Of a stretch of 10,626 nt of DNA, positions 1 through 10,626 are shown piece after piece. Every line of letters starts with the position of its first letter. Position 1 is the stretch's first letter. The notes beneath the pieces were generated by a model, which saw only the letters and a program-made list of their open reading frames with translations, made no database searches and was not told the DNA's origin. This DNA is from Microcaldota archaeon (GTDB taxonomy: Archaea > Micrarchaeota > Micrarchaeia > Micrarchaeales > CABMGC01), in contig JAKACG010000020.1 of assembly GCA_021821605.1 (NCBI GenBank), forward strand, positions 1-10,626, in the 5' to 3' direction. The translations under genes and the position numbers were made by a program.

Positions 1-1
1 A

Positions 2-397
2 AAATCAATAAATTATGCTTCATGGAACAAGTTTTTTCAACTACTTTCATACAAGGCTGAAAGTGCTGGTATGAAAGTAATAGAAATAGACCCAAAAAAC
101 ACATCAAAGATATGTAGTAATTGTGGCAATATTCAAAGTATGCCACTCTCAAAACGAATCTATTTCTGTGAAGAATGTGGTCTACAAGAAAATAGAGATC
201 TAAACGCATCAATAAACATACTCAAAAAGGCTTTGAACTCTACGAGTTCAAATTTTGACGGCAAAACCCTCAAAGCTACCGCAGGACATGCGGAAAGTCA
301 CGCTCAGGGAGAGAATGTAAGACCTCAACAGGAGGCAGTCCTCGAAGAACTGAGAACCGATAAAACACATCATTTGCGGGATGCGGTGATTGCATGA
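2..397 (+). CDS. tnpB: TnpB RNA-guided nuclease, C-terminal part (5' end outside window)
   Basis: The frame is open from base 2 and gives 131 residues matching the C-terminus of TnpB, the RuvC-fold nuclease that uses an omega RNA to cut DNA at the donor site and favour element retention. Visible are the conserved stretch SWNKFFQLLSYKAESAGMKV, the zinc ribbon CSNCG...CEECG (first cysteine codon 113-115) and the RDLNAS motif whose Asp (codon 197-199) is the third catalytic acid of RuvC. The remaining tail, with AGHAESHAQG and a QQEA segment, is typical of the family's variable end, so the C-terminus looks intact. The first methionine codon at 71 is internal, not a start. The first two catalytic acids are outside the window, so activity cannot be judged. 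Confidence 0.93.
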   Translation, partial: KSINYASWNKFFQLLSYKAESAGMKVIEIDPKNTSKICSNCGNIQSMPLSKRIYFCEECGLQENRDLNASINILKKALNSTSSNFDGKTLKATAGHAESHAQGENVRPQQEAVLEELRTDKTHHLRDAVIA

Positions 398-460
398 ACG
401 CAGAGGAAGCCCACGCAGTTTATGGGTGGGAGGAGGTCACATGACACTTATAAGAATCCA
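300..460 (+). ncRNA. Candidate omega RNA (reRNA) of the TnpB element with its guide segment
   Basis: In IS200/IS605 elements the TnpB guide RNA is made from the 3' end of tnpB and the right transposon end, with the guide copied from flanking DNA just past the boundary. Here the matching segment is the end of the tnpB frame plus the hairpin ending at 440. If the boundary is right, the guide would begin at 441 (ATGACACTTATAAGAATC...), the 5' end of the neighbouring ATPase gene. The 5' limit is arbitrary, since processing cannot be seen in sequence. This is inference from family knowledge; the hairpin and its position are what the sequence shows. Confidence 0.5.
410..430 (+). repeat. Right-end stem-loop of the IS element
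   Basis: CCCAC at 410-414 pairs with GTGGG at 426-430 around an 11-nt loop. It sits ten bases before the proposed transposon end. This is the position of the subterminal hairpin that the transposase recognises, and of the scaffold stem closest to the guide in the TnpB RNA. Confidence 0.75.
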
Positions 461-1949
461 AACTTTAATGAGCAATGAAATATCTAAAAGGATATTCTTA
501 AGCAGGCCTCCGGAGCCTCCCCCAGAGTATCTTCTAAATGATCCTACCAACTCAATTTTTATAGGCACTACTAAGATCTTCAAAATACCCTTTACCTGGA
601 CATTTTCAAATATAACAAATCCTCACATCTCGGTTGTTGGAATAACCGGAGCAGGGAAAAGTTTTTTCGTAAAGACCTTTCTAGCAAGAGCTAGTTATAT
701 CTGGAATACAAACGCAATAATAATAGACTGGGCTGGAGAGTATATTTCATGGGTAAAACAGAGTGGTGGAAAGGTTGTAGCTCTTTCTAAAGGAGATTAT
801 CTTAATATAATGGATCTATCTGGAATGAAGCCCATAGATCGTGCAAAGCAAATAATGAACTCCTTAGACATACTTACTGACATAGCATTATATCCAGAGC
901 AGAGGCGTCTTACCGCAGAAGCTATAGAACAGGCATACTTAAATCTCGGATTCCCAATAGCAGCTCCGCCACCTCCTGGAAAGGAGCCTCCAACACTAAA
1001 GGATGTAACTAAACTCTTGGATGAAAAACTTCAGGAAGGTACATACGCATATCCTGCGGAGCTTGAGAATGCGATATATAGGCTCAGGCAGTTTTCACGA
1101 GAAGGTGAGGATTACTTTGCAAACAAAAGCACAATAGATATAGGGAAGCTAACATCATCAGGACTAATAGACCTTGATTTGTCTAGTCTTCCTGATGAAA
1201 GGTTCAGAGCCATGGCCGCTCTTTTTATTCTTCAAACATTAAAGGAGAAGATGCGCCTCGAAACATGGAGTGCTTCTGCCGGTCTTAAAACCTTGGTTGT
1301 ACTTGATGAAGCATGGAAAGTAGCTAGCGATGAGAGGAGCGACGCAGTTACAATAATAAGGGAAGGAAGAAAGTATAGTTTTGGCCTAATTGTCGCATCG
1401 CAAAATCCTACTGATGTAAACGAAGCTATATTCTCAAATGTTGGCACTACCTTTATGCTTAGAATAAGGTTTGAGAAGTTTATGAATTATCTTCAAGGCT
1501 CTTTAAATTTTTCTGATTTTATACGAAGCGAGATAAGCAAGTTAGGTGTAGGCCAAGCCGCAATAGACATGGCCTTTAATACTGGGGTAAGATTTCCAAA
1601 CATCTTTTTGGTAGATAAAATTGTTGGTGAGCTGCCTCTTGATACATACTCTATTTTCACATCTGATATATTGACCGAGAAGGAGCTTGGAGATGTACAG
1701 ATCAAAAAAGATTACTCTTTTGATAAGATGACAATAAGCTCTAAACTCATAGAAACTGGATTTAACTCAGAGGCTATACAGACAATACTGAAAAAGATGG
1801 GTGAGCAAGGCAGGCATGTAGATATACGTGAGTTTGCAAGAATATGTTTGTCTACTGGAATAAATAAAACTGCGCTTATCTCATTTTTACGTTCAATAGG
1901 TGTTACTGATACTATTATCTCTAGGATTATGTCCTATATAACTACTTGA
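441..1949 (+). CDS. HerA/VirB4-class P-loop ATPase with a helical-repeat C-terminal tail
   Basis: This 502-residue protein belongs to the HerA/FtsK/VirB4 group of motor ATPases that pump DNA or protein. Walker A is GITGAGKS (67-74). Next comes the IIIDWAGEY strand (94-101), whose D-x-x-GEY form is typical of HerA/VirB4. Walker B is LVVLDEAW (285-292), followed by a sensor-like ASQNP (319-323). Residues 437-500 form a separate helical tail of two 33-residue repeats shared with the next gene. No TM segment is visible, so it is a soluble or membrane-associated motor. The start is uncertain: ATG 441 follows a GGAGGT only 3 nt away, but that site belongs to the IS end; ATG 468 (MSNEISKRIF) is in frame and may be the native start. 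An in-frame TTG at 390 lies inside the IS and is unlikely. It is not canonical HerA: no HAS-barrel N-terminus and no nurA, mre11 or rad50 neighbour is seen. Confidence 0.88.
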   Translation: MTLIRIQTLMSNEISKRIFLSRPPEPPPEYLLNDPTNSIFIGTTKIFKIPFTWTFSNITNPHISVVGITGAGKSFFVKTFLARASYIWNTNAIIIDWAGEYISWVKQSGGKVVALSKGDYLNIMDLSGMKPIDRAKQIMNSLDILTDIALYPEQRRLTAEAIEQAYLNLGFPIAAPPPPGKEPPTLKDVTKLLDEKLQEGTYAYPAELENAIYRLRQFSREGEDYFANKSTIDIGKLTSSGLIDLDLSSLPDERFRAMAALFILQTLKEKMRLETWSASAGLKTLVVLDEAWKVASDERSDAVTIIREGRKYSFGLIVASQNPTDVNEAIFSNVGTTFMLRIRFEKFMNYLQGSLNFSDFIRSEISKLGVGQAAIDMAFNTGVRFPNIFLVDKIVGELPLDTYSIFTSDILTEKELGDVQIKKDYSFDKMTISSKLIETGFNSEAIQTILKKMGEQGRHVDIREFARICLSTGINKTALISFLRSIGVTDTIISRIMSYITT

Positions 1950-1957
1950 GTGATTAT

Positions 1958-2257
1958 ATGGCACAAAAAACCTTTGTAATAAGCAAAATAGATATTAAAA
2001 AAATGTTATCATCCTTAGGCATAAGCCCTGGAAATATAGAAGCCATGCTTGGAATCATAGAAAAATCCCATAGGCATGTTGACGCAATAGCGTTTGTAGG
2101 AATGTTAGAGAAGCTTGGCTTAAAACCATCTGACATAGAAAATATATTCAGGAGAATAGGAATTGACGATGCCAGAATAGTTGAGATATTCAATGCACTG
2201 GACGAGGAAAAGATAGAAGCTGCTTTCGGTAAGGTGGCCGAGTTAAAGGTTGAGTAA
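1958..2257 (+). CDS. Small all-helical protein homologous to the tail of the preceding ATPase
   Basis: This 99-residue protein of unrecognised family contains no catalytic motif. It is made of two copies of a 33-residue unit (about residues 11-34 and 44-67) with the pattern ML-x2-LG-[IL]-x-P-x2-IE-x-[IM]-[LF]-x2-I. The same unit, in the same phase and with no gap, makes up residues 437-500 of the ATPase: both have RHVD at the same place, then IG and a D-x2-I. I chose ATG 1958, 8 nt after the ATPase stop, preceded by GAGTGAT, a reasonable ribosome-binding sequence; the TTG at 1946 overlaps the ATPase stop and is less likely. Its TAA abuts the next ATG. Shared repeats and tight spacing suggest that it binds the ATPase or its partner. 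An adaptor or regulatory subunit is the best guess, by inference. Confidence 0.8.
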   Translation: MAQKTFVISKIDIKKMLSSLGISPGNIEAMLGIIEKSHRHVDAIAFVGMLEKLGLKPSDIENIFRRIGIDDARIVEIFNALDEEKIEAAFGKVAELKVE

Positions 2258-2677
2258 ATGGTAACAAAAGAAAAACAAAAAAGCTATTGCATAATCTGCG
2301 GCAAAGAAGCAGATGGTATAGAAATAAAAATAGACAACGTAATTCGTACAATAAGATACATAAAGAAAAAACTTTTCAAAACAGAAAAAAACAACAAGCT
2401 CGTGGTATCAAAGGAGTGCTACGAAATATATATGAAAAATAGGAAACGATACATATCTAGGCAACGCCTCTATGTTGGACTGGGACTGCTTTTTGTAATC
2501 TTTTCAGTATTAATAGCACCTAGTCTGCCAACATTTGGGCTCTCTGTTTTGATATTACTTTTTCTATATCTAATATCATTCCTTAATTATACTCCAGAGT
2601 TAAAAATAAAGTTACTTAAAAATAATTCTGCACACGCTTCTAATGCGGTAAAAGAGGAGAAAAAGAAAATCTCATAA
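2258..2677 (+). CDS. Two-TM membrane protein with N-terminal zinc-finger-like motif
   Basis: This is a 139-residue protein. The N-terminus has a CIICGKE knuckle (Cys11, Cys14) and a second element, KECYE, with Cys54. This resembles small archaeal treble-clef or LIM-like fingers of the form CxxCG...HxxC, but the expected fourth ligand is not obvious, so zinc binding is uncertain. A basic stretch (59-70) precedes two hydrophobic helices at about 71-89 and 93-111 joined by a tight turn. The basic flanks suggest that both ends face the cytoplasm. The C-terminus is lysine-rich. Its ATG follows the upstream TAA directly, so it is translated as part of the ATPase operon. It may tether the complex to the membrane; this comes from context and there is no recognised family function. 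Confidence 0.8.
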   Translation: MVTKEKQKSYCIICGKEADGIEIKIDNVIRTIRYIKKKLFKTEKNNKLVVSKECYEIYMKNRKRYISRQRLYVGLGLLFVIFSVLIAPSLPTFGLSVLILLFLYLISFLNYTPELKIKLLKNNSAHASNAVKEEKKKIS

Positions 2678-2734
2678 TGACATATTATTAAAAAAGTTAA
2701 AAAAAGCTATAAAACAAAGAAGTTAAAGTATATG

Positions 2735-2756
2735 ATATATGGTCAATTTCATATAT
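2735..2756. repeat. Inverted repeat in the 175-bp gap
   Basis: ATATATG (2735-2741) and CATATAT (2750-2756) form a 7-bp stem around an 8-nt loop. It lies 57 nt past the stop of the two-TM protein gene and upstream of the next promoter. It could be an operator or a 3'-end structure. No T-tract follows on the plus strand, and the AT-only arms make chance likely. Nothing else is recognisable in this gap apart from the TATA box further on. Confidence 0.35.
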
Positions 2757-2814
2757 TCAAAAGAATAATTACGTAAAAATAATAGGAAAAAAGGGAGCAT
2801 ACAAAAACGCAAGC

Positions 2815-2826
2815 AATAAATATATT
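2815..2826 (+). promoter_or_regulatory. Archaeal TATA box upstream of the coiled-coil/winged-helix gene
   Basis: AATAAATATATT is centred about 31 nt before the TTG at 2853. Archaeal TATA boxes lie about 26-27 nt upstream of the transcription start, so the transcript would be almost leaderless. This supports both a new transcription unit here and the TTG start. Confidence 0.5.
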
Positions 2827-2852
2827 CAAGACTTAGCTATTACTGTGGTATT

Positions 2853-3578
2853 TTGGCTGAAGAAAGCATTCTTGCACCAAAGGTCGAGAAATTAAATATT
2901 AATGGCAAATTAATAGGCACGTTTCAGGGTATTCTTGATAGAGTTTCTAAAGTGCCGTTCTACGTAAGCTCAGTATCTGTAGATTCTGCAACTATAGCAG
3001 TTATAGAGAGCAGAAACATCAAAAAACAACCATATCTTTTCTACATCTTTAATATAACTAATGAGTATATTGAGATAACTTACTCCATACCTAACGATAC
3101 AAGCGAGACATTAAGGAGGGCTTATGTACTCCGTAATACCGCCTCATTTCTTTCCAGTATAAATGATCTTTTTGATATAGACAAACAGGCATTCTTGCAA
3201 TACGTGGACTCTACGTTAGATAAGCTTCTTTCTGGAATATCGCAAAATTACAGTGTGCTTTTCAATAAATACGACTCATTGCTTAGTGAGTATCGTGCAA
3301 CAAAGAGGCTTAACATAGAGCTTTCTGCATCAAACAGAAATCTTTCTATTCAAACCGCAGATTTACTTGAAGAAAATAAAAAATTAAAAGATAGCCTAAG
3401 CAAACTACAAAAATACTCTGATGAGTCTTTAATGTCAATGGTTGAAGACTGGATAAATGTTCATGGCAGCAGCATAGATGTAGATGAGTTCGCCAAAACT
3501 TATAATCTTACATCTCCAAGGGTGGAAGAAATACTTGACAAGATGGTATCTAAAGGATATATTGAATTAAGAGGTTAA
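2853..3578 (+). CDS. Unrecognised protein with coiled coil and C-terminal winged helix
   Basis: This is a 241-residue protein. Residues 1-130 look like a mixed alpha/beta domain (beta-rich around 36-80) of no family I recognise. Residues about 135-190 form a heptad-like coiled coil. Residues 192-240 (MVEDWINVHGSS...DEFAKTYNLTSPRVEEILDKM...GYIELRG) fit a winged helix-turn-helix, with the recognition helix at about 220-232. No TM segment or signal peptide is visible, so it is cytoplasmic and probably an oligomer that binds DNA or protein. The start is TTG 2853; no ATG lies near the N-terminus, and the TATA spacing supports the TTG. It is followed after one base by a 48-codon ORF and then the large membrane protein, which suggests co-transcription. 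Regulation of the cluster or a structural role are both possible. Confidence 0.75.
   Translation: MAEESILAPKVEKLNINGKLIGTFQGILDRVSKVPFYVSSVSVDSATIAVIESRNIKKQPYLFYIFNITNEYIEITYSIPNDTSETLRRAYVLRNTASFLSSINDLFDIDKQAFLQYVDSTLDKLLSGISQNYSVLFNKYDSLLSEYRATKRLNIELSASNRNLSIQTADLLEENKKLKDSLSKLQKYSDESLMSMVEDWINVHGSSIDVDEFAKTYNLTSPRVEEILDKMVSKGYIELRG
3571..3575 (+). promoter_or_regulatory. Shine-Dalgarno GAGGT for the 48-codon ORF
   Basis: GAGGT ends 4 nt before ATG 3580 and overlaps the last codons of the preceding gene. It matches the anti-Shine-Dalgarno core (GGAGGTGA), which argues that the short ORF is translated. Confidence 0.5.
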
Positions 3579-3579
3579 T

Positions 3580-3726
3580 ATGAAGTACTTTGTATATATA
3601 AATAAAAAGTTCAATAACGTACGCTCTTATAGAGTTATCAAAAGCTCAAAGAACAATACTAACTTTCTATCTCGTTCAGTTCAGTCGTTTGTAGATAAGC
3701 ATTTTTTAAGGAAACAACAGATATGA
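3580..3726 (+). CDS. Small basic protein, 48 residues
   Basis: The product begins MKYFVYINKKFNNVRSYRV and ends HFLRKQQI. It is strongly basic and polar, with no TM segment or known motif. The case for a real gene is positional: ATG 3580 comes one base after the preceding stop, has a GAGGT at good spacing, and the TGA (3724-3726) ends 3 nt before the next candidate ATG. The ORF thus fills the gap between two genes exactly. The function is unknown. Confidence 0.6.
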   Translation: MKYFVYINKKFNNVRSYRVIKSSKNNTNFLSRSVQSFVDKHFLRKQQI

Positions 3727-3729
3727 TTG

Positions 3730-6099
3730 ATGGTATTAATGGTTTCAAAAAAAAAGATTTTAATAATAAGCGCTGTATTAGCTGTGCTTATATCTTTTTT
3801 TATTATTTTTCTTTATTTTTATGTAAATGGGCTTTTGTCTAATCTAAAGCCTGTATACATAGAAAATGGTACAATATCTACAAATATCTCAATCTTCAAG
3901 ACCGGTGTTGCTTCTTATAACTACTCAAATCATCTTGCGGTTTACTCATTTATAAAATATAACATTAAAAATGCGACAAATGCTTTAATAAGTCTTGATG
4001 TATTCCAAAGAAATCCTATAATGAAGATTTATCTTTTAAATCCAATTTATTCATGCTTTGACTGTTTTAATTTTGCTGCGATAGAAGAAAATTTGTCTTC
4101 GGATCTTTCAAAGTATGGGCTATTGCTTAATTCTTCAAGTTTTCAAGTAGTAAGCATTTTAAATACCAGTGAGATAGCTCCAGATTCAATAGTAATACTT
4201 CCCACTGGACTTTTGCCTGCTGATATTGTCCCATACTCTGGTTTTTCAAGCTCACGTAAAAATAAAAACCTAATACAGTTGCTAAATGAAAAGGATACTA
4301 TAATCTATGTTGGGCAAAACTTTTCAAGAATTATAGAGAATGGCCAAACATTATTTACAAATAACAAAACAACCTCGACATTTTATAATATAAGCCTAGC
4401 AACATTCTCAGATAACAATATAACCTCAACCAACTCATTTTTCTTTAATAAACCTACATTCATGCTTTTAAATGGGACTTCTCTTGGAGCAATATCTTAT
4501 GTGAATATTGAAAATGGTACAGTTGTCGCATTTAGTAATTACCCTACTATCGGATGGGAAAATTCCTCTGCGTTATCCTCTGATCTATCAAGGGCAGTTT
4601 TTCTAAGGTTCTGGATAAATATACTTGCAAAGGGCAGTTTTAATATATCTAAGACTGCAAGCTCCTCCCCGCTATCAGGTGATAAGTTCCTATTTACGAC
4701 TCAAAAAGCCATAAACTTTACATCTAATGCAACCTCTATTTTAAATGCATCCTATCCTTTAATTTTGATAAATAGCAGCAATGGATATACATATCAAAAC
4801 TATGAACTACCATTTCATATAATATATAACGACACTGCAATCATAAATATGCCAGCTGTTGTAGGCTACGGCGATCAAGTTCCCGTCAGCGTTTCAATAA
4901 GCCAGTTCTCAACAAACAAGGCATTTAGTATAGTGGCCTACAATGGTTCATTAAAATCAATATACGGCTTTCCATTGGATTTTTTCAACACTTCATACTC
5001 GATAGTAAAGTATGGAACCTTAGATGTGCCTACTGGAGGATATTATCTCGCATCTCTTGTAGATATAAACAACATATCTCATGGAAGTGCAATATTTTAT
5101 ACTCCATACCTTAATATTACTCTTCCATCTCCTGACTTTAAAAATGGCACCTTTGTCTTTAAAATATTGAGCGATAATCAAGGACTTTCAAACATGCCTT
5201 ACACCATAACGGTAAATGGAGAGTATCCACAACAAGGAACCGTTAATAATGGCAATATAGAGTACACAGTTCCAAAAGGAACGGTTCTTAATTATGGTTA
5301 TCAACGTTTCAATATTTCATTGATAAATATTAATTATACTCTGTACTCTTACTACGCATCGCCTCCTGGAATACCTTCTCTATATATAGAGTTCGGAGTT
5401 GCTGCGTTCTTGATACTTTTATTAAATGTTGTTTTAAAACCTCCAAACCGTGAAGATTATTATATAGACATACCTGAAATACCTCCAATAAAAAAACAGG
5501 AAATAACAGTAAAACAAGATCAGATAATATCTATTTTCGATATGATAAACTTCAAATATAAATGGCAGTACATGCCTTTAACTCCTGAAGAAATAAAAGC
5601 GGGCATAAGCTCTAATATACGCGAGAACAACATGCCAATATCCGTAACACTTCAAAACACCAGAAGAATCTTATATAAATTAGCATCAGATAAAAAGTTG
5701 GAATCTTTAGATGAGTATTACATACCTACGGAATGGATCATCAAATCAAAGCATGATACAGAGTACCTTGTAATATTTAGAAAGTTACGTGACTTTTTTG
5801 TGTCGCACGCAATACCATTTACAGATTTAGACATGTCTTCAGAGGCAGACATAATAGCAACGGTAAGAGACAAAAATTTCAAGCTTTTTATTTTTTCTGA
5901 GAGTGCAGGCGTGAGAGATATAAAGATAAATGCTGAAGAAAAAAACATACTCATATTTTTAAATAAGGAAATAAGGCTTTCATTTAAAGATAAATTGGAT
6001 AATCAATATAATGATGAAACAAACAAGTTGCGTATGGCATTATATCTGAATTATCTTAAATTAGCAGATATCGATTCACTAAAAGATATATTTTCTTAA
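3730..6099 (+). CDS. Large bitopic surface glycoprotein with cytoplasmic C-terminal domain
   Basis: This is a 789-residue membrane protein of no family I recognise. TM1 is at about 10-31, after a KKK. TM2 is at about 551-569, followed by KPPNRED. Between them lie 27 N-x-S/T sequons (N46 to N535); none occurs in the last 220 residues, which marks residues 32-550 as extracellular and 570-789 as cytoplasmic. The outer part has a lone CFDC pair (109-112). A stretch DSIVILPTGLLPADIV...LIQLLNEKDTIIYVG (152-194) recalls the Rossmann-like domains of DUF4350/GldG-type proteins, and 470-537 looks like an Ig-type beta sandwich; both are weak calls. The cytoplasmic tail is alpha/beta with no visible catalytic motif. 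ATG 3730 or 3739 are equally good starts. Spacing to the 48-codon ORF suggests one operon. It could be the envelope component served by the upstream ATPase. Confidence 0.8.
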   Translation: MVLMVSKKKILIISAVLAVLISFFIIFLYFYVNGLLSNLKPVYIENGTISTNISIFKTGVASYNYSNHLAVYSFIKYNIKNATNALISLDVFQRNPIMKIYLLNPIYSCFDCFNFAAIEENLSSDLSKYGLLLNSSSFQVVSILNTSEIAPDSIVILPTGLLPADIVPYSGFSSSRKNKNLIQLLNEKDTIIYVGQNFSRIIENGQTLFTNNKTTSTFYNISLATFSDNNITSTNSFFFNKPTFMLLNGTSLGAISYVNIENGTVVAFSNYPTIGWENSSALSSDLSRAVFLRFWINILAKGSFNISKTASSSPLSGDKFLFTTQKAINFTSNATSILNASYPLILINSSNGYTYQNYELPFHIIYNDTAIINMPAVVGYGDQVPVSVSISQFSTNKAFSIVAYNGSLKSIYGFPLDFFNTSYSIVKYGTLDVPTGGYYLASLVDINNISHGSAIFYTPYLNITLPSPDFKNGTFVFKILSDNQGLSNMPYTITVNGEYPQQGTVNNGNIEYTVPKGTVLNYGYQRFNISLININYTLYSYYASPPGIPSLYIEFGVAAFLILLLNVVLKPPNREDYYIDIPEIPPIKKQEITVKQDQIISIFDMINFKYKWQYMPLTPEEIKAGISSNIRENNMPISVTLQNTRRILYKLASDKKLESLDEYYIPTEWIIKSKHDTEYLVIFRKLRDFFVSHAIPFTDLDMSSEADIIATVRDKNFKLFIFSESAGVRDIKINAEEKNILIFLNKEIRLSFKDKLDNQYNDETNKLRMALYLNYLKLADIDSLKDIFS

Positions 6100-6121
6100 T
6101 GCAGTTTTATAATATTTATAT

Positions 6122-6136
6122 CAAAAATAAAAAAGA
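6122..6136 (-). terminator. T-rich terminator of the KH-top6B operon
   Basis: Read on the minus strand this is TTCTTTTTTATTTTTG, 54-68 nt past the top6B stop. Archaeal termination relies on such oligo-T tracts without a hairpin. It lies in the 90-bp convergent gap, and no comparable long T tract is seen for the plus-strand gene that ends at 6099. Confidence 0.5.
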
Positions 6137-6189
6137 ACCGAACTTTATCTGCTACTGCTACTTTAATTTCTAATCGATGATAATTCGTA

Positions 6190-7845
6190 CTACTGCTCTG
6201 CTTCTTCGTTTTCTACTTCAACATCTTCTTCTTTATTTTTTAATTCTTCAGGGCTTTCACCCAAAAATTTCTTGTACTTATTTTCAATAAGTGTTTTAAG
6301 TGAGCCTTCTATTTCTTTTTGAGTTATATCGGTTATTTCAGATAAATCTTTTGAAAGCTGTGATATGTATCTCATAATAGTTTTATACCTTGTTTCCTGT
6401 AGCTGCATATTTTTTATTCCGCTTAGATATCTCTGTAATATTCTTCCACAGTCCATAACTGCAAGTCTTATCTCCTCTATTATGTCATCTTCTTTTGCTA
6501 TTGCTTGCTTTCCTACCCCTGAGTATGGAACATAAACGCTTGAAACATTTACAAATATGCTTACCGGCTCTTCATCAAAATTGCCAAGTCCATATCTCTT
6601 CCACTGGATTCCTTTTATGGCTTCAGTTATTGCACAGTTAGAGCCATCAAAAAGCAGTGGAACCTTATTTGCAAATCTTAAGACATTGCCTTCTGCCTCT
6701 ATTATATTTCCATTTTTGTCTACCTGATTTACCGCCTTTCCTGACTCTCCACCATAAGCTATTCCGGCTTCAACAACAAACGGTATTCCTCCTCTGAAAA
6801 CCTTGGGCTTACGCTCCACAACGCTTAAGAACTTAGGATTTAATATATTCTTAATTGCTATCTCTATTTGTTTGTCACCTATTGTTGATAACGCATCTAA
6901 CTCTGGTATCATCCATTTAATCTTTTTGAATGCTTTCACTAGTTTTTCAGACTCACTCCATTGCATCTTGCTTGGCTCTTGATCAAAATCAATATCTGGT
7001 GCTATTGCCTTAAGCTCAGCTATCTTTCCTTGAGTCATTCTAGAAAATGTCTCTATTAAAAAAACAGACAATCTTTTTTCATGGCTTCTATGTGCAAACT
7101 CTATAAGATCGTTTGTGTCTACGCCTAATGGATGTGGTTTAACCTCCTTAGGTCTTTTAGGCATCTCATTTACGGCTCTTATAAAAATCGATTCCTTTCC
7201 ATCAGGATCTAAGAGTTTTATGGTGGTGTGTGGGTTAGACAATGCAGTTCTTTTCAAGTACTCAAATACTCCATGCTCGCTGTTTTCATACTTAAGTTCA
7301 CCAAACTCTCCTATTACCTCTGTGCCATTGTTCTTTATCTCTATTTTTTTCATCTCTGTAATTATTGGTTTATTTGACTTAATATCAAGGTCTACATTGC
7401 ATTCATATGATTCCTTTTCGTTCATTGACCTTACGGTTATTGGTTTTCCTGTTGTTATTTTTGAAAATAATGTGCATCCCGAAGCTCCTATTCCTTGTTG
7501 CCCTCTTTGCTGTACATATCTATGAAACTTTGTCCCTGCAAGAACCGTAGCAAATACCTTTCCTACATGTTTTGATGGTATTCCAGGACCATTGTCCTTT
7601 ACACTTATATTGTATTTGCCTTCTTCAATAAGCTTTATCACTACCTCTATCTCAGGTAAAATTCCAGCTTCTTCGCAAGCATCTAAGCTGTTTGTAACAT
7701 ACTCATGTATAATTGTAGTTAATGAGCGTACCTTTCCTGAGTATCCAAGCATCTGACTATTTTTTCTAAAAAACTCTGATATAGAGTGTTCCTTAAATTC
7801 TTTAAATATCTCCTCTGACTTTACGTTTTCTACCATAAAACTCAT
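6190..7845 (-). CDS. top6B: Type II DNA topoisomerase VI subunit B
   Basis: TopoVI-B is the ATPase half of the A2B2 enzyme that relaxes and decatenates DNA by double-strand passage. The 551 residues are normal length. The GHKL ATP site is complete: N-box HEYVTNSLDA with Glu48 and Asn52, G1 DNGPGIP (84-90) and G2 RGQQGIGASG (114-123). The H2TH region and transducer domain follow. The switch lysine that reaches the gamma-phosphate is Lys446 in VGKQAIA. The C-terminus ends in an acidic tail (ESPEELKNKEED...). ATG 7845 overlaps the stop of the KH gene as ATGA; a second Met at residue 4 is possible. The partner subunit gene top6A, which often follows directly in archaea, is absent: the downstream gene is convergent and unrelated. 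Confidence 0.97.
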   Translation of the reverse strand: MSFMVENVKSEEIFKEFKEHSISEFFRKNSQMLGYSGKVRSLTTIIHEYVTNSLDACEEAGILPEIEVVIKLIEEGKYNISVKDNGPGIPSKHVGKVFATVLAGTKFHRYVQQRGQQGIGASGCTLFSKITTGKPITVRSMNEKESYECNVDLDIKSNKPIITEMKKIEIKNNGTEVIGEFGELKYENSEHGVFEYLKRTALSNPHTTIKLLDPDGKESIFIRAVNEMPKRPKEVKPHPLGVDTNDLIEFAHRSHEKRLSVFLIETFSRMTQGKIAELKAIAPDIDFDQEPSKMQWSESEKLVKAFKKIKWMIPELDALSTIGDKQIEIAIKNILNPKFLSVVERKPKVFRGGIPFVVEAGIAYGGESGKAVNQVDKNGNIIEAEGNVLRFANKVPLLFDGSNCAITEAIKGIQWKRYGLGNFDEEPVSIFVNVSSVYVPYSGVGKQAIAKEDDIIEEIRLAVMDCGRILQRYLSGIKNMQLQETRYKTIMRYISQLSKDLSEITDITQKEIEGSLKTLIENKYKKFLGESPEELKNKEEDVEVENEEAEQ

Positions 7846-8333
7846 CTGTATTTTTTTCTTAGGCTTTCCATTATTCTATAAGCTTTTTTATGCGTTCCTC
7901 CCTCTACAAGTATCTGCAGGGCTGCTGTTGCAATCGCAAGCTCTTCAGTAGTGCCTATTATTCCTACTGTATTATCAAATAATGAAAGCGATACATTGCT
8001 TACATCTTCAATATAACTTTTTGTCTTTCCATCCTGGCCTATTATCCTGGCTTTTATTCTCTTAATTTCTGCATCATTCTTTAAAAGATCCTTAAGATTG
8101 ACATACTTAAAATAATACTCATCATTTAATAGTTTGAATGACTCACCTACAGAAAAACCCTTACCAAATGCCTCTATTACATTCTTAGCGTTGTACTCGT
8201 CATAAGCTGCACCATCTATCTTTACTCTACCATCCTGTAGAATCTCTATACTGCAGTTAAGTTTTTTACTTAGCCTTTCAAGTACTTTATGCAGTGCGGC
8301 TACTCTTTTTGGAGATATTAAAACTGTTTCCAT
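7842..8333 (-). CDS. KH-domain RNA-binding protein, archaeal Dim2/Pno1 (Krr1-like) family
   Basis: This is a 163-residue two-KH protein. The second KH carries the RNA-binding loop in ARIIGQDGKTKSYIE (GQDG at 99-102). The first (about 5-60) has no GxxG, as in Pno1/Dim2 proteins. The end, EGGTHKKAYRIMESLRKKYR, is also family-typical. The eukaryotic homologue Pno1/Dim2 escorts pre-40S particles and 20S pre-rRNA; the archaeal version is thought to act on the 3' end of 16S rRNA and to bind eIF2-alpha. The gene overlaps top6B by 4 nt, a pairing seen in other archaea, where RIO1 kinase and eIF1A genes often lie upstream; neither is here. ATG 8333 is the only good start, since an in-frame alternative would remove the first KH strand. 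Confidence 0.93.
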   Translation of the reverse strand: METVLISPKRVAALHKVLERLSKKLNCSIEILQDGRVKIDGAAYDEYNAKNVIEAFGKGFSVGESFKLLNDEYYFKYVNLKDLLKNDAEIKRIKARIIGQDGKTKSYIEDVSNVSLSLFDNTVGIIGTTEELAIATAALQILVEGGTHKKAYRIMESLRKKYR

Positions 8334-8371
8334 TTAAATCAATCTAATTGTACTGGTCATTTTAGATATAT

Positions 8372-8380
8372 CTTATATTT
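8372..8380 (-). promoter_or_regulatory. TATA box for the KH-top6B operon
   Basis: On the minus strand this reads AAATATAAG, centred about 43 nt upstream of the KH start codon. It predicts a start of transcription near 8350 and a 5' leader of about 15-20 nt. It shares the 206-bp divergent region with the promoter of the regulator gene on the plus strand. Confidence 0.45.
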
Positions 8381-8434
8381 TATTAAATGGTTTCGAGGCA
8401 AGATATATACTATATACTGTGTTTTAATACAATA

Positions 8435-8446
8435 CATTTAAATATC
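8435..8446 (+). promoter_or_regulatory. TATA box upstream of the putative regulator gene
   Basis: CATTTAAATATC is centred near 8441 and predicts transcription from about 8468, which leaves a leader of about 70 nt before ATG 8540. A second TATA-like stretch, TTTATATTAAT (8451-8461), would give a start near 8482. Either way the mRNA has an unusually long leader for this compact window. Confidence 0.45.
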
Positions 8447-8461
8447 TTTCTTTATATTAAT

Positions 8462-8474
8462 ATGATTGAATCAT
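8462..8474. promoter_or_regulatory. Perfect 13-bp palindrome, possible operator
   Basis: ATGATT-G-AATCAT is a perfect inverted repeat about a central G. It sits at the predicted transcription start of the winged-helix gene that follows. This placement suits a repressor site, perhaps autoregulation. That role is inference, and the AT-rich background lowers its weight. Confidence 0.35.
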
Positions 8475-8538
8475 GATTGTTTCAGGATATCTCTGTGTAA
8501 TGTTCATGGAGTTCATGGTTTTGTCGAGGATGTATTAA
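8473..8538 (+). CDS. Possible 21-residue leader ORF
   Basis: ATG 8473 opens 21 codons ending at TAA 8536-8538, one base before the start codon of the regulator gene. The product, MIVSGYLCVMFMEFMVLSRMY, is hydrophobic and rich in Met and Phe. The predicted TSS near 8468 would make it almost leaderless. It could be a leader peptide that couples translation or a membrane microprotein, but an ORF of this size is easily due to chance. Confidence 0.3.
   Translation: MIVSGYLCVMFMEFMVLSRMY
8502..8518 (+). repeat. Direct repeat GTTCATGG x2 in the leader
   Basis: GTTCATGG occurs at 8502-8509 and again at 8511-8518, a period of 9 bp and so nearly one helical turn. It lies 22-38 nt upstream of the regulator's ATG. 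It may be a protein-binding site, or just a repeat of the Met-Phe codons in the possible leader ORF. Confidence 0.45.
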
Positions 8539-8539
8539 A

Positions 8540-9046
8540 ATGGCAAAAACTCAAAAAAGAATAGAAAAGGAGCTTCTATCCCTCAAAAGCGAGATAGCTT
8601 CTTTATCTAATAGATCAGAAAAGAGCATCTCTTCTGAAGATGGGGTTAGTGCCATGCTTAAGTACATGATGGAAGAGAGGGAGAAAACAAACAAGATACT
8701 TTCTGCTATCACCGCAAAAATCAAAAAGATAGAGCAGGATTTGGAGGAAAATTATGTAGCCGAGCCGGAGTCTTTGTATACTGAGCAGATTCCAATATCA
8801 AATCGTGAGATACCTTTGTCTTCATTAGACGTAAAAATACTTAACTTTGCACAGTCAAAGGGAATGATCTGCGCAGAAGATCTAAAGTCAGAGATGAATT
8901 ACAAAGGAAGAAATGCTGCATGTTCAAGGCTTAATAAATTATTCAAGCAAGGTCTCTTAGAGAGATTTCAGCTTGGTCACAAAGTTTACTACAAATATGA
9001 TGCTGGCAAGGCGACCAATACACTTATTATATCACCTCCACGGTAG
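8540..9046 (+). CDS. Coiled-coil, winged-helix putative transcription regulator
   Basis: This is a 168-residue protein. Residues 1-70 are charged and heptad-like (KRIEKELLSLKSEIASL... and KKIEQDLEEN), probably a coiled-coil dimer. An acidic linker follows, and then residues about 93-153 form a winged helix: helix DVKILNFAQSK, helix AEDLKSEM, recognition helix NAACSRLNKLFKQGLL and a wing around ERFQLGHKVYYKYD. This is the arrangement of MarR/ArsR-like DNA-binding domains, but I cannot name the family. No TM or metal site is visible. ATG 8540 is fixed by an in-frame TAA at 8498-8500 with no start codon between. It is divergent from the KH-top6B operon and could control itself, its neighbours or the CAP gene; the target is unknown. 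Confidence 0.75.
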   Translation: MAKTQKRIEKELLSLKSEIASLSNRSEKSISSEDGVSAMLKYMMEEREKTNKILSAITAKIKKIEQDLEENYVAEPESLYTEQIPISNREIPLSSLDVKILNFAQSKGMICAEDLKSEMNYKGRNAACSRLNKLFKQGLLERFQLGHKVYYKYDAGKATNTLIISPPR

Positions 9047-9048
9047 AT

Positions 9049-9083
9049 GGATGGGCCTGCCTCCACAGCAGGCTCAACCATCC
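9049..9083 (+). other. GC-rich nested stem-loop just after the regulator gene
   Basis: GGATGG (9049-9054) pairs with CCATCC (9078-9083). GCCTGC (9055-9060) pairs with GCAGGC (9068-9073), with a 7-nt loop CTCCACA and a 4-nt TCAA bulge on one side. These 12 perfect pairs stand out in an AT-rich intergenic region. It begins 2 nt after the stop codon. Archaeal terminators do not need hairpins and no T tract follows, so a 3'-end stabiliser, a small RNA or a protein-binding element are options. It does not fold as a tRNA and lacks a k-turn. Its function is unknown. Confidence 0.6.
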
Positions 9084-9097
9084 TAATTCTTACTTGC

Positions 9098-9119
9098 CAT
9101 CAACATTTAAATGTTAATG
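9098..9119. promoter_or_regulatory. 22-bp near-perfect palindrome, possible operator
   Basis: AACATTTAAATGTT (9102-9115) is a perfect 14-bp palindrome. After one mismatch (C9101/A9116) three more pairs (CAT/ATG) extend it to 22 bp. It lies about 75 nt upstream of the TATA box of the CAP-domain gene. The half-site CATTTAAAT also appears at 8333-8341 and 8435-8443. A dimeric regulator site is plausible but not shown. Confidence 0.45.
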
Positions 9120-9190
9120 ATAAAAATCGCTTCTTAATCAATGTTCTATAATTTCAACTTAAACTTCCACTATTCCATTAAAAAAGAAGG

Positions 9191-9200
9191 ATATTTATAT
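9191..9200 (+). promoter_or_regulatory. TATA box of the CAP-domain gene
   Basis: ATATTTATAT is centred about 34 nt before ATG 9230, predicting transcription from near 9223 and a leader of only a few bases. The in-frame TTG at 9206 would lie upstream of this start site, so the TATA box decides the start codon. Confidence 0.55.
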
Positions 9201-9229
9201 CTAATTTGTTCACAGTTATATGGATTTGG

Positions 9230-10540
9230 ATGGAAGCCCATAAGAAAAAGGGCAGGGATAACTCTACGTTTGTTAATCGTACTGTTAAGTTTGCAGCTGC
9301 TGCTGCCATATTAACTGGTCTCGCAAGAGGACCTGAAGTTGCACAAGCAGGATATCCCCTAAATGAAATTGTTGCGGTAAACAAGAACATAACACATGAA
9401 GAAACCATTACAAACGTAAAGGTACCTTCTTATTTAATACCTAAGTACCTTTATCAAGTTCCTGCTATTTGGTATAAAAAAATGGGCGTTCCTAAAAAAG
9501 AAAGAAACATACACGATTGCGATGTACATCCTTCCATATCATTTGATCAATATTACAAACTTGCAGTAGCTAATTATAAAGCTGCTGATTGGCATCCTAG
9601 TTCTGAACTTGCAAGAATGAAGCAGTTTGCTATACTCTGTACAAATATGGATAGGATATCAAATGGCGAAAGACCTATAGTTGCGGTAAATGAACCTTCC
9701 GCACAACAACATGCAAATAGTATGCTGCTCAAAAATTATGTTTCACACTGGAACACCGAAAATATGTTGCCATATATGCGTTACAGTATTTTTGGAGGTA
9801 ATGAGGGTGCAATTGAAAATGTTGATGGTGATGGTTATAAAGGACATGATCCAGCATATGCCTTGGCACATGGGCTGTGGGCCATGATGTTTAGCGACGG
9901 TGCAGCAGGTAATGGTCATAGACTTACAATTTTAAATCCTACCAATACTGGATTAAGTGTTGGTATAGCAATAGGTGCACCTCCTAATTATGCAACACGT
10001 TTAGATGAAGAGTTTATATGCGATTATATACATTGGAAACAAAGTCCAATACTTTCAGGAGGAGTAATTTCATTAAGTGGTAGTATAACAGATCCAAATC
10101 ATATTTTACAAAAAAATGCTCTTGGTGGGATAGCAATAATATATAACAAACCTTTACATTATATATCCCCTAAAAGACTAGTGTCAGAACAGTATTCTGG
10201 TCATAAAATTTCATATGGTTTTGATGATGCACTAGTAGCGCTTTCAGACACTGCTCATGTAGATTATCGCAATAATCCACAACAACCTGATTTTATAAAA
10301 AAAGAATTTAAAAATGATGGTAACTTTAACATAAGTATAAATGTCAAAAATTTGATAGAAAAAAACGGGGCTGGGGAGTACACATTATTAATATGGTTGA
10401 AACCAAATATAAAAGCTCCTGCAATTAAGGGTCAATATGAAAACACTCTAGGGCAAGGAACTAGGGTAGTTATGAAAACCTTCTTCATAGATAGAAACGG
10501 TAATCAATACAATCCTGAACTTACAGTTGCAATGCGATGA
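9230..10540 (+). CDS. Secreted CAP/SCP-domain (PR-1-like) protein
   Basis: This is a 436-residue exported protein. A basic N-terminus (HKKKGR...NRTVK) precedes the hydrophobic FAAAAAILTGLA and a likely signal-peptidase site after AQA (residues 38-40). Residues about 148-250 are a CAP domain (PF00188 type): QQHANSMLLKNYVSHWN with His173, AIENV with Glu196, then GNGHRLTILNPTNTGLSVGIA with His230. His and Glu at these places line the CAP cavity. Residues from about 275 (GGVISLSGSI...) look like the beta-rich extension found on many prokaryotic CAP proteins. Three cysteines (97, 137, 264) are present. CAP proteins bind sterols, lipids or other partners in various lineages, and the role here is unknown. 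The gene has its own TATA box and stands alone. CAP proteins are more usual in bacteria and eukaryotes, so an origin by transfer is possible. Confidence 0.85.
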   Translation: MEAHKKKGRDNSTFVNRTVKFAAAAAILTGLARGPEVAQAGYPLNEIVAVNKNITHEETITNVKVPSYLIPKYLYQVPAIWYKKMGVPKKERNIHDCDVHPSISFDQYYKLAVANYKAADWHPSSELARMKQFAILCTNMDRISNGERPIVAVNEPSAQQHANSMLLKNYVSHWNTENMLPYMRYSIFGGNEGAIENVDGDGYKGHDPAYALAHGLWAMMFSDGAAGNGHRLTILNPTNTGLSVGIAIGAPPNYATRLDEEFICDYIHWKQSPILSGGVISLSGSITDPNHILQKNALGGIAIIYNKPLHYISPKRLVSEQYSGHKISYGFDDALVALSDTAHVDYRNNPQQPDFIKKEFKNDGNFNISINVKNLIEKNGAGEYTLLIWLKPNIKAPAIKGQYENTLGQGTRVVMKTFFIDRNGNQYNPELTVAMR

Positions 10541-10552
10541 TATATATATAAA
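10541..10552 (+). promoter_or_regulatory. TATA box of the pilin-like gene
   Basis: TATATATATAAA follows the CAP gene stop directly. Its TATATAAA core is centred about 27 nt before ATG 10576, the exact spacing for a leaderless archaeal transcript. This supports the partial gene at the edge. Confidence 0.55.
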
Positions 10553-10575
10553 TTTATCTATCCTTATATAAACTT

Positions 10576-10626
10576 ATGAAACTACTTAAACTTCAATCTG
10601 CATTAGAGTACTTAAGTGCATATTCT
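10576..10626 (+). CDS. N-terminus of a class III signal peptide (type IV pilin-like) protein, partial
   Basis: Seventeen codons are visible before the window ends: MKLLKLQSALEYLSAYS. A short lysine-containing leader followed by QSALEYL matches the archaeal class III signal peptide (Q-x-S-x-E-[FY]-L; PF04021 type), in which a prepilin peptidase cuts before the Gln and Glu+5 of the mature pilin is conserved. Many DPANN pilin-like proteins begin with a similar SAMEYLMTYGWAI sequence. The hydrophobic helix that should follow is outside the window. A well-placed TATA box supports the start. Confidence 0.7.
   Translation, partial: MKLLKLQSALEYLSAYS

Follow-up and report, generated by a model that had tools for sequence, protein, structure and literature searches.

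The known systems closest to the ATPase considered here are VirB4 of the type IV secretion systems (T4SS), represented by Thermoanaerobacter VirB4 (4ag5/4ag6) and TrwK of R388, the HerA DNA translocase, and CedB, CedD and TedB of the Ced and Ted DNA-import systems of Crenarchaeota. The contact machinery of host-dependent archaea is little known. Here we describe a 10,626-nucleotide stretch of a Microcaldota archaeon (assembly GCA_021821605.1, contig JAKACG010000020.1, positions 1 to 10,626; hereafter the window), in which a VirB4/HerA-like motor ATPase of the FtsK-HerA superfamily is followed by the gene of a 99-residue protein (the small protein). An earlier sequence-only reading had noted that the C-terminal tail of the ATPase resembles this small protein, and we examine here how the two are related and what their pairing may mean for the motor.

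Results

The tail of the ATPase was first aligned with the small protein at residues 437–500 and 18–81 respectively, coordinates which prove correct, with 15 of 64 positions identical in a gapless alignment that includes the RHVD and R.IG..D..I blocks. The local alignment scores 71, compared with 25.5 ± 4.6 for shuffled sequences, none of 2000 shuffles scoring as high. Alignment of the two families by hhalign places ATPase residues 421–501 against small-protein residues 2–82, again without gaps (probability 96.6, E = 5.2e-10), showing that the region was rightly chosen but drawn too short, the homology in the ATPase gene starting ~54 bases before the point given. This comparison of hidden Markov models (HMMs), which the sequence-only reading had proposed as a check, upheld the similarity with larger alignments (probability 97.3, E = 1.9e-11) and on further enlargement (probability 98.6, E = 1.1e-15), the last in an alignment that mixes small proteins with tails from relatives lacking a separate small gene (undivided tails). 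Across related loci, the small-protein HMM matches 79 of 80 ATPases (E = 4.9e-10 to 0.017; L024 is missed), and the ATPase HMM matches all 79 small proteins. The order of helices is predicted to be alike in the two, with a mean predicted local distance difference test score of 83–91 across ten-residue blocks of ATPase residues 421–500. Profile comparison thus confirms that the last ~80 residues of the ATPase and the small protein are homologous. A superficial likeness to mTERF repeats was also suggested earlier, and finds no support, with a single-sequence search of both window proteins returning no mTERF family match at E values up to 1.

Both proteins were proposed to consist of two copies of a 33-residue unit, and a lag of 33 residues is indeed the best of lags 20–44 in each, with the predicted helices 10–19/24–36 and 43–52/57–67 of the small protein recurring at this spacing. 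Lag 33 is also the best in the mean over each of four groups tested, and comes top individually in 63/80 small proteins, 29/81 tails, 22/45 undivided tails, and 8/16 further small proteins. The repeat is genuine yet faint; its presence in homologous loci leaves the original claim standing, but single small proteins often carry it too faintly for lag 33 to rank first.

The pair is conserved in a recurring operon. Scanning genome contigs yielded 132 relatives, of which 80 loci were kept and called Micrarchaeum-type (our own name), labelled as Micrarchaeota (70), Marsarchaeota (5), and for the rest Micrarchaeum, Micrarchaeaceae, Mancarchaeum, an uncultured archaeon, and a bacterium. The small gene follows the ATPase in 79 of these, and in the remaining locus (L033) the contig stops ~119 bases past the ATPase. 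The small-gene reading frame starts between -16 and +11 bases from the ATPase stop in 71/79 loci; in the window, a TTG at 1946, in frame with the small protein, overlaps the ATPase stop. The 139-residue gene with two transmembrane (TM) helices comes next in 78/80 loci, with the 241-residue gene matched in 69/80 (67 in place and on the same strand) and the 790-residue gene in 65/80 (64 in place and on the same strand), none of the three counts being adjusted for contig ends. Upstream of the ATPase, polytopic membrane proteins are found in the 12 Micrarchaeum-type loci displayed, 10 of which carry two proteins of ~275–310 residues with 2–3 TM helices that are related to one another (hhalign probability 99.7, E = 3.1e-25).

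Elsewhere in Micrarchaeota an undivided state, without the small gene, occurs. The small-protein profile matches 248 of 301 genomes of the phylum, and of the 108 further genomes inspected singly (G006–G113), 103 match, 21 with a separate small gene beside the ATPase tail and 82 without (for 5 of the 82 the open frames are short, most of them lying at the end of a contig). These undivided relatives bear one tail domain on the ATPase, with a homologue of the 139-residue gene at the ATPase end in all 44 loci kept, lying within 60 bases or overlapping in 41 and at 70, 166, and 204 bases in the other three. Eight paralogous motors bear the tail too, seven of them without a small gene; the eighth (L124) has a small neighbour with a weak match.

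Undivided tails score 54.9–68.8 bits against the small-protein profile, save two at 35.4 and 39.5 bits, compared with 33.3–46.4 bits for 13 of 16 attached tails, the exceptions being those of G059 (48.3), G058 (53.3), and G104 (62.6). By mean score, the small protein lies nearer the undivided tails than does the tail of its own ATPase in 16/16 further loci and 77/79 Micrarchaeum-type loci (15/16 and 76/79 by best score). Position 40 of the small protein is His in 84% of undivided tails and in 93% and 94% of small proteins, whereas the equivalent position of attached tails is Arg in 75% or mixed. Sequence comparison therefore shows the free copy to keep the ancestral-like residues, the attached copy having diverged. 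That it is the small protein and not the attached tail which resembles the undivided tails indicates that the domain was duplicated, with the free copy the ancestral-like one; this, the homology, and the relatives with undivided tails all support the earlier suggestion that a domain was copied and became a subunit of its own.

A quick motor-core tree of 80 rows, with the paralogues as outgroup, places undivided motors as the background, the split state requiring five changes, in the Micrarchaeum-type loci and their sisters, G058/G059, G104, G014, and a group formed by G020 and G025, from which G014 is weakly separated. In a domain tree of 97 rows, a single clade of small proteins is rejected by the approximately unbiased test (p-AU = 0.000131), as is a single clade of attached tails with all rows included (p-AU = 0.00387).

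The P-loop motor domain of the ATPase is of DUF87/AAA_10 type (present in 52/52), with the DUF87 match beginning at residue 49 and no Pfam match, at E values up to 1, to the canonical VirB4 N-terminal domain ahead of it. The VirB4_CagE model fits by its motor part alone (positions 423–683), and in NCBIfam the motor scores highest with CedD (72 bits), the VirB4 CD1110 family (62), and CedB (61), all far below cut-offs. A VirB4-like ATPase as required of a T4SS or a Ced/Ted DNA-transfer system is present. The ATPase has a VirB4-like motor fold, and its operon encodes membrane proteins. No VirB2-like pilin was seen in the window; PF18895/PF04956 pick out candidates (E = 1.5e-5 to 0.031) upstream in L095 and L098 and, in L093, next to the paralogue, one of them also matching the TrwL pilin model (9.1e-5). 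Together with the NCBIfam matches, these candidates suggest that the operon may encode a T4SS/Ced-like machine.

Gene content of the window and its relatives

The features of the pair and its operon are listed in Table 1.

Table 1. Positions of the ATPase, the small protein, and the downstream operon genes in the window
Feature	Position	Strand	Basis or remark
HerA/VirB4-like motor ATPase, 502 residues	441..1949	+	Start ATG 441
Walker A region of ATPase	~639-662	+	By sequence reading
Walker B region of ATPase	~1296-1316	+	By sequence reading
C-terminal tail domain of ATPase, residues 421-501, homologue of the small protein	1701..1943	+	hhalign
Two 33-residue units of ATPase tail, residues 437-469 and 470-502	1749..1946	+	Lag 33 best
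Small protein, 99 residues, probable free copy of tail domain	1958..2257	+	Start ATG 1958
Two 33-residue units of small protein, residues 18-50 and 51-83	2009..2206	+	Lag 33 best; helix spacing
Operon gene, 139 residues, cysteine-bearing N-terminus, two predicted TM helices	2258..2677	+	
Conserved operon gene, 241 residues, coiled coil, C-terminal winged-helix-like end	2853..3578	+	
Conserved operon gene, 790 residues, N-terminal TM, large middle, second TM near 547-565	3727..6099	+	

The 139-residue protein has a weak match to the DUF2116 treble clef (0.0072), and the 241-residue protein has weak matches to EAP30, PCI, and CdvB. Immediately upstream of the ATPase, at 71–397, lies a C-terminal TnpB fragment (Cas12f1-like TNB domain, 7.9e-17), which occupies the site of the two-TM membrane genes of relatives, a likely insertion or rearrangement. 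A TnpB-like reading frame is also found in L030, where ~1.3 kb (about 7500–8830) separates the ATPase from an intact small gene, both frames being open. On the minus strand at 6190–8333, genes for a topoisomerase VI B subunit and a KH-domain protein adjoin the operon, with homologues in the fetched flanks of 55/80 and 42/80 loci respectively. Those for a 168-residue protein and a 444-residue protein (weak CAP-domain match, 0.024) occupy 8540–10540, and neither is matched by a homologue in the flanks fetched for these 80 loci.

Amongst the relatives, the ~275-residue two-TM protein encoded upstream of the ATPase (L001, 4181–5944, and relatives) forms a tandem pair in Micrarchaeum-type loci, the second copy being present in 68 of the 75 that have the first, with a single copy in most other loci tested. 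A second cluster in genome G004 (L093, 2223–5416) combines a pilin-like protein, a seven-TM protein, a 206-residue relative of the two-TM protein, and a 370-residue motor with the tail domain.

Discussion

The best explanation of these observations, in which we place a moderate degree of confidence, is that the C-terminal domain of the adjacent VirB4-type motor exists a second time, as the free small protein, with the ancestral-like copy now free, the attached copy diverged, and the two probably acting in a collar and docking mechanism. In this mechanism, like domains would touch one another and so build a collar on the motor ring, at its C-terminal face. Following duplication, the attached tail would serve mainly as an anchor, with the small protein binding it directly in substitution for the old tail–tail contact, and taking over the docking of cargo or of an operon partner.

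Several points weigh against this reading. In 2/79 loci the attached tail is nearer to the undivided tails than is the small protein, and His40 gives a clearer picture than either the Glu following it (88%, 100%, and 48% against 37% and <22%) or a late Asp (95%, 100%, and 84% against 75% and a minority). The VirB2-like pilin candidates all fall below cut-offs, the upstream polytopic proteins tested for a VirB6/CedA-like channel gave no Pfam or NCBIfam assignment, and the membrane genes normally found upstream are missing from the window. The motor-core tree was built quickly, the 97 rows of the domain tree share 83 columns, and the groups used in the constraint tests, whilst defined by gene layout, were tested with the tree already known. 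Rejection of a single small-protein clade is also expected under one duplication followed by re-fusions, and a single clade of attached tails is no longer rejected once G058/G059 have been removed (p-AU = 0.215). In these two genomes (L113 and L142), the second halves of the tail and the small protein agree at 36/42 and 30/42 residues, the first halves at only 8/34 and 10/34, and partial gene conversion of the near-identical second halves is therefore likely.

As to history, the main rival is a single ancient duplication giving rise to both the tail and the small gene, with undivided lineages arising later through deletion or recombination that fused the motor to small-gene sequence. Such a history, which we regard as plausible though the poorer wager, accounts directly for undivided tails resembling small proteins over attached tails, fits the attached-tail test made without G058/G059, and draws on the ease with which neighbouring copies recombine in principle. 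However, it requires many recurrent fusions, the split state is nested within an undivided background on the motor-core tree, all but one of the paralogous motors also lack the small gene, and the attached-tail clade is rejected when every row is included. The motor tree and parsimony together favour repeated duplication, and we lean to several duplications (about five) over one with later re-fusions, the latter still being a serious rival.

A second alternative, a form of which the sequence-only reading had raised, is that the shared domain docks on a third partner such as the 139-residue membrane protein and the two copies never touch. It draws support from the near-constant presence of the 139-residue gene in Micrarchaeum-type loci and from its place adjoining the ATPase where the small gene is absent; we consider it unlikely. 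Improbable in our view is a small protein that mimics the tail as a regulator and, until it is released, holds back assembly or the entry of substrate. An assembly domain present as a separate copy can in principle behave in this way, and close gene spacing suggests matched expression, but such a role leaves unexplained why the free copy and not the attached one is ancestral-like. Convergence of unrelated helical-hairpin proteins, although helices of this kind are prone to false matches (the family profile hits a protein designed de novo at 6.4e-6), is very hard to credit given the gapless 80-column profile match, the reciprocal matches in 79/80 loci, and the undivided relatives that bridge tail and small protein.

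The free-copy reading leaves a motor family with the domain both attached and free in some lineages and attached only in others, so that the transition from a one- to a two-component machine becomes testable with living controls. It also points, in archaea thought to be host-dependent, to a conserved operon resembling those for secretion or DNA transfer. More tentatively, and at somewhat under an even chance, the operon may encode an undescribed T4SS-like envelope machine of Micrarchaeota, whose motor would in about five lineages have repeatedly exported a copy of its C-terminal domain, the separate subunit keeping the ancestral function as the attached copy drifts, in a replicated natural experiment on the passage from a one- to a two-component motor collar, with the upstream two-TM partner also doubled in some lineages.

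Amongst known folds, the tail domain shares its helix-loop-helix spacing with the EF-hand pairs of calmodulin and calcium-dependent protein kinases (CDPKs), and weak profile matches to EF-hand proteins are found (calmodulin-calcineurin construct, 0.005; CDPK, 3.6e-5), the de novo designed protein matching better than these. Pfam EF-hand models match 4/71 and 2/68 members, no EF-hand is named among the 37 Foldseek matches, and unlike in EF-hands, the acidic residues of the calcium-binding loop appear absent as read from the sequence. No description of the tail/small-protein pair appears among the literature matches listed, as covered by titles, abstract openings, and passages of PMC9905601, PMC11868833, PMC10266531, PMC8975820, and PMC4158269.

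Compared with VirB4 of T4SS, the window ATPase lacks a match to the N-terminal domain, and none of the 50 matches listed passes ATPase residue 396, leaving the tail outside. HerA gives a structural score against the window ATPase below that of VirB4, with no match to NurA among the ten window reading frames scanned. The Ced/Ted systems are alike in that CedD and CedB are among the motor's best hits in NCBIfam (far below cut-offs) and that pilin candidates lie near some relatives, with no CedA-type match for the upstream membrane proteins tested. Unlike in Ced/Ted, the C-terminal domain of the motor has here apparently been copied into a non-motor protein.
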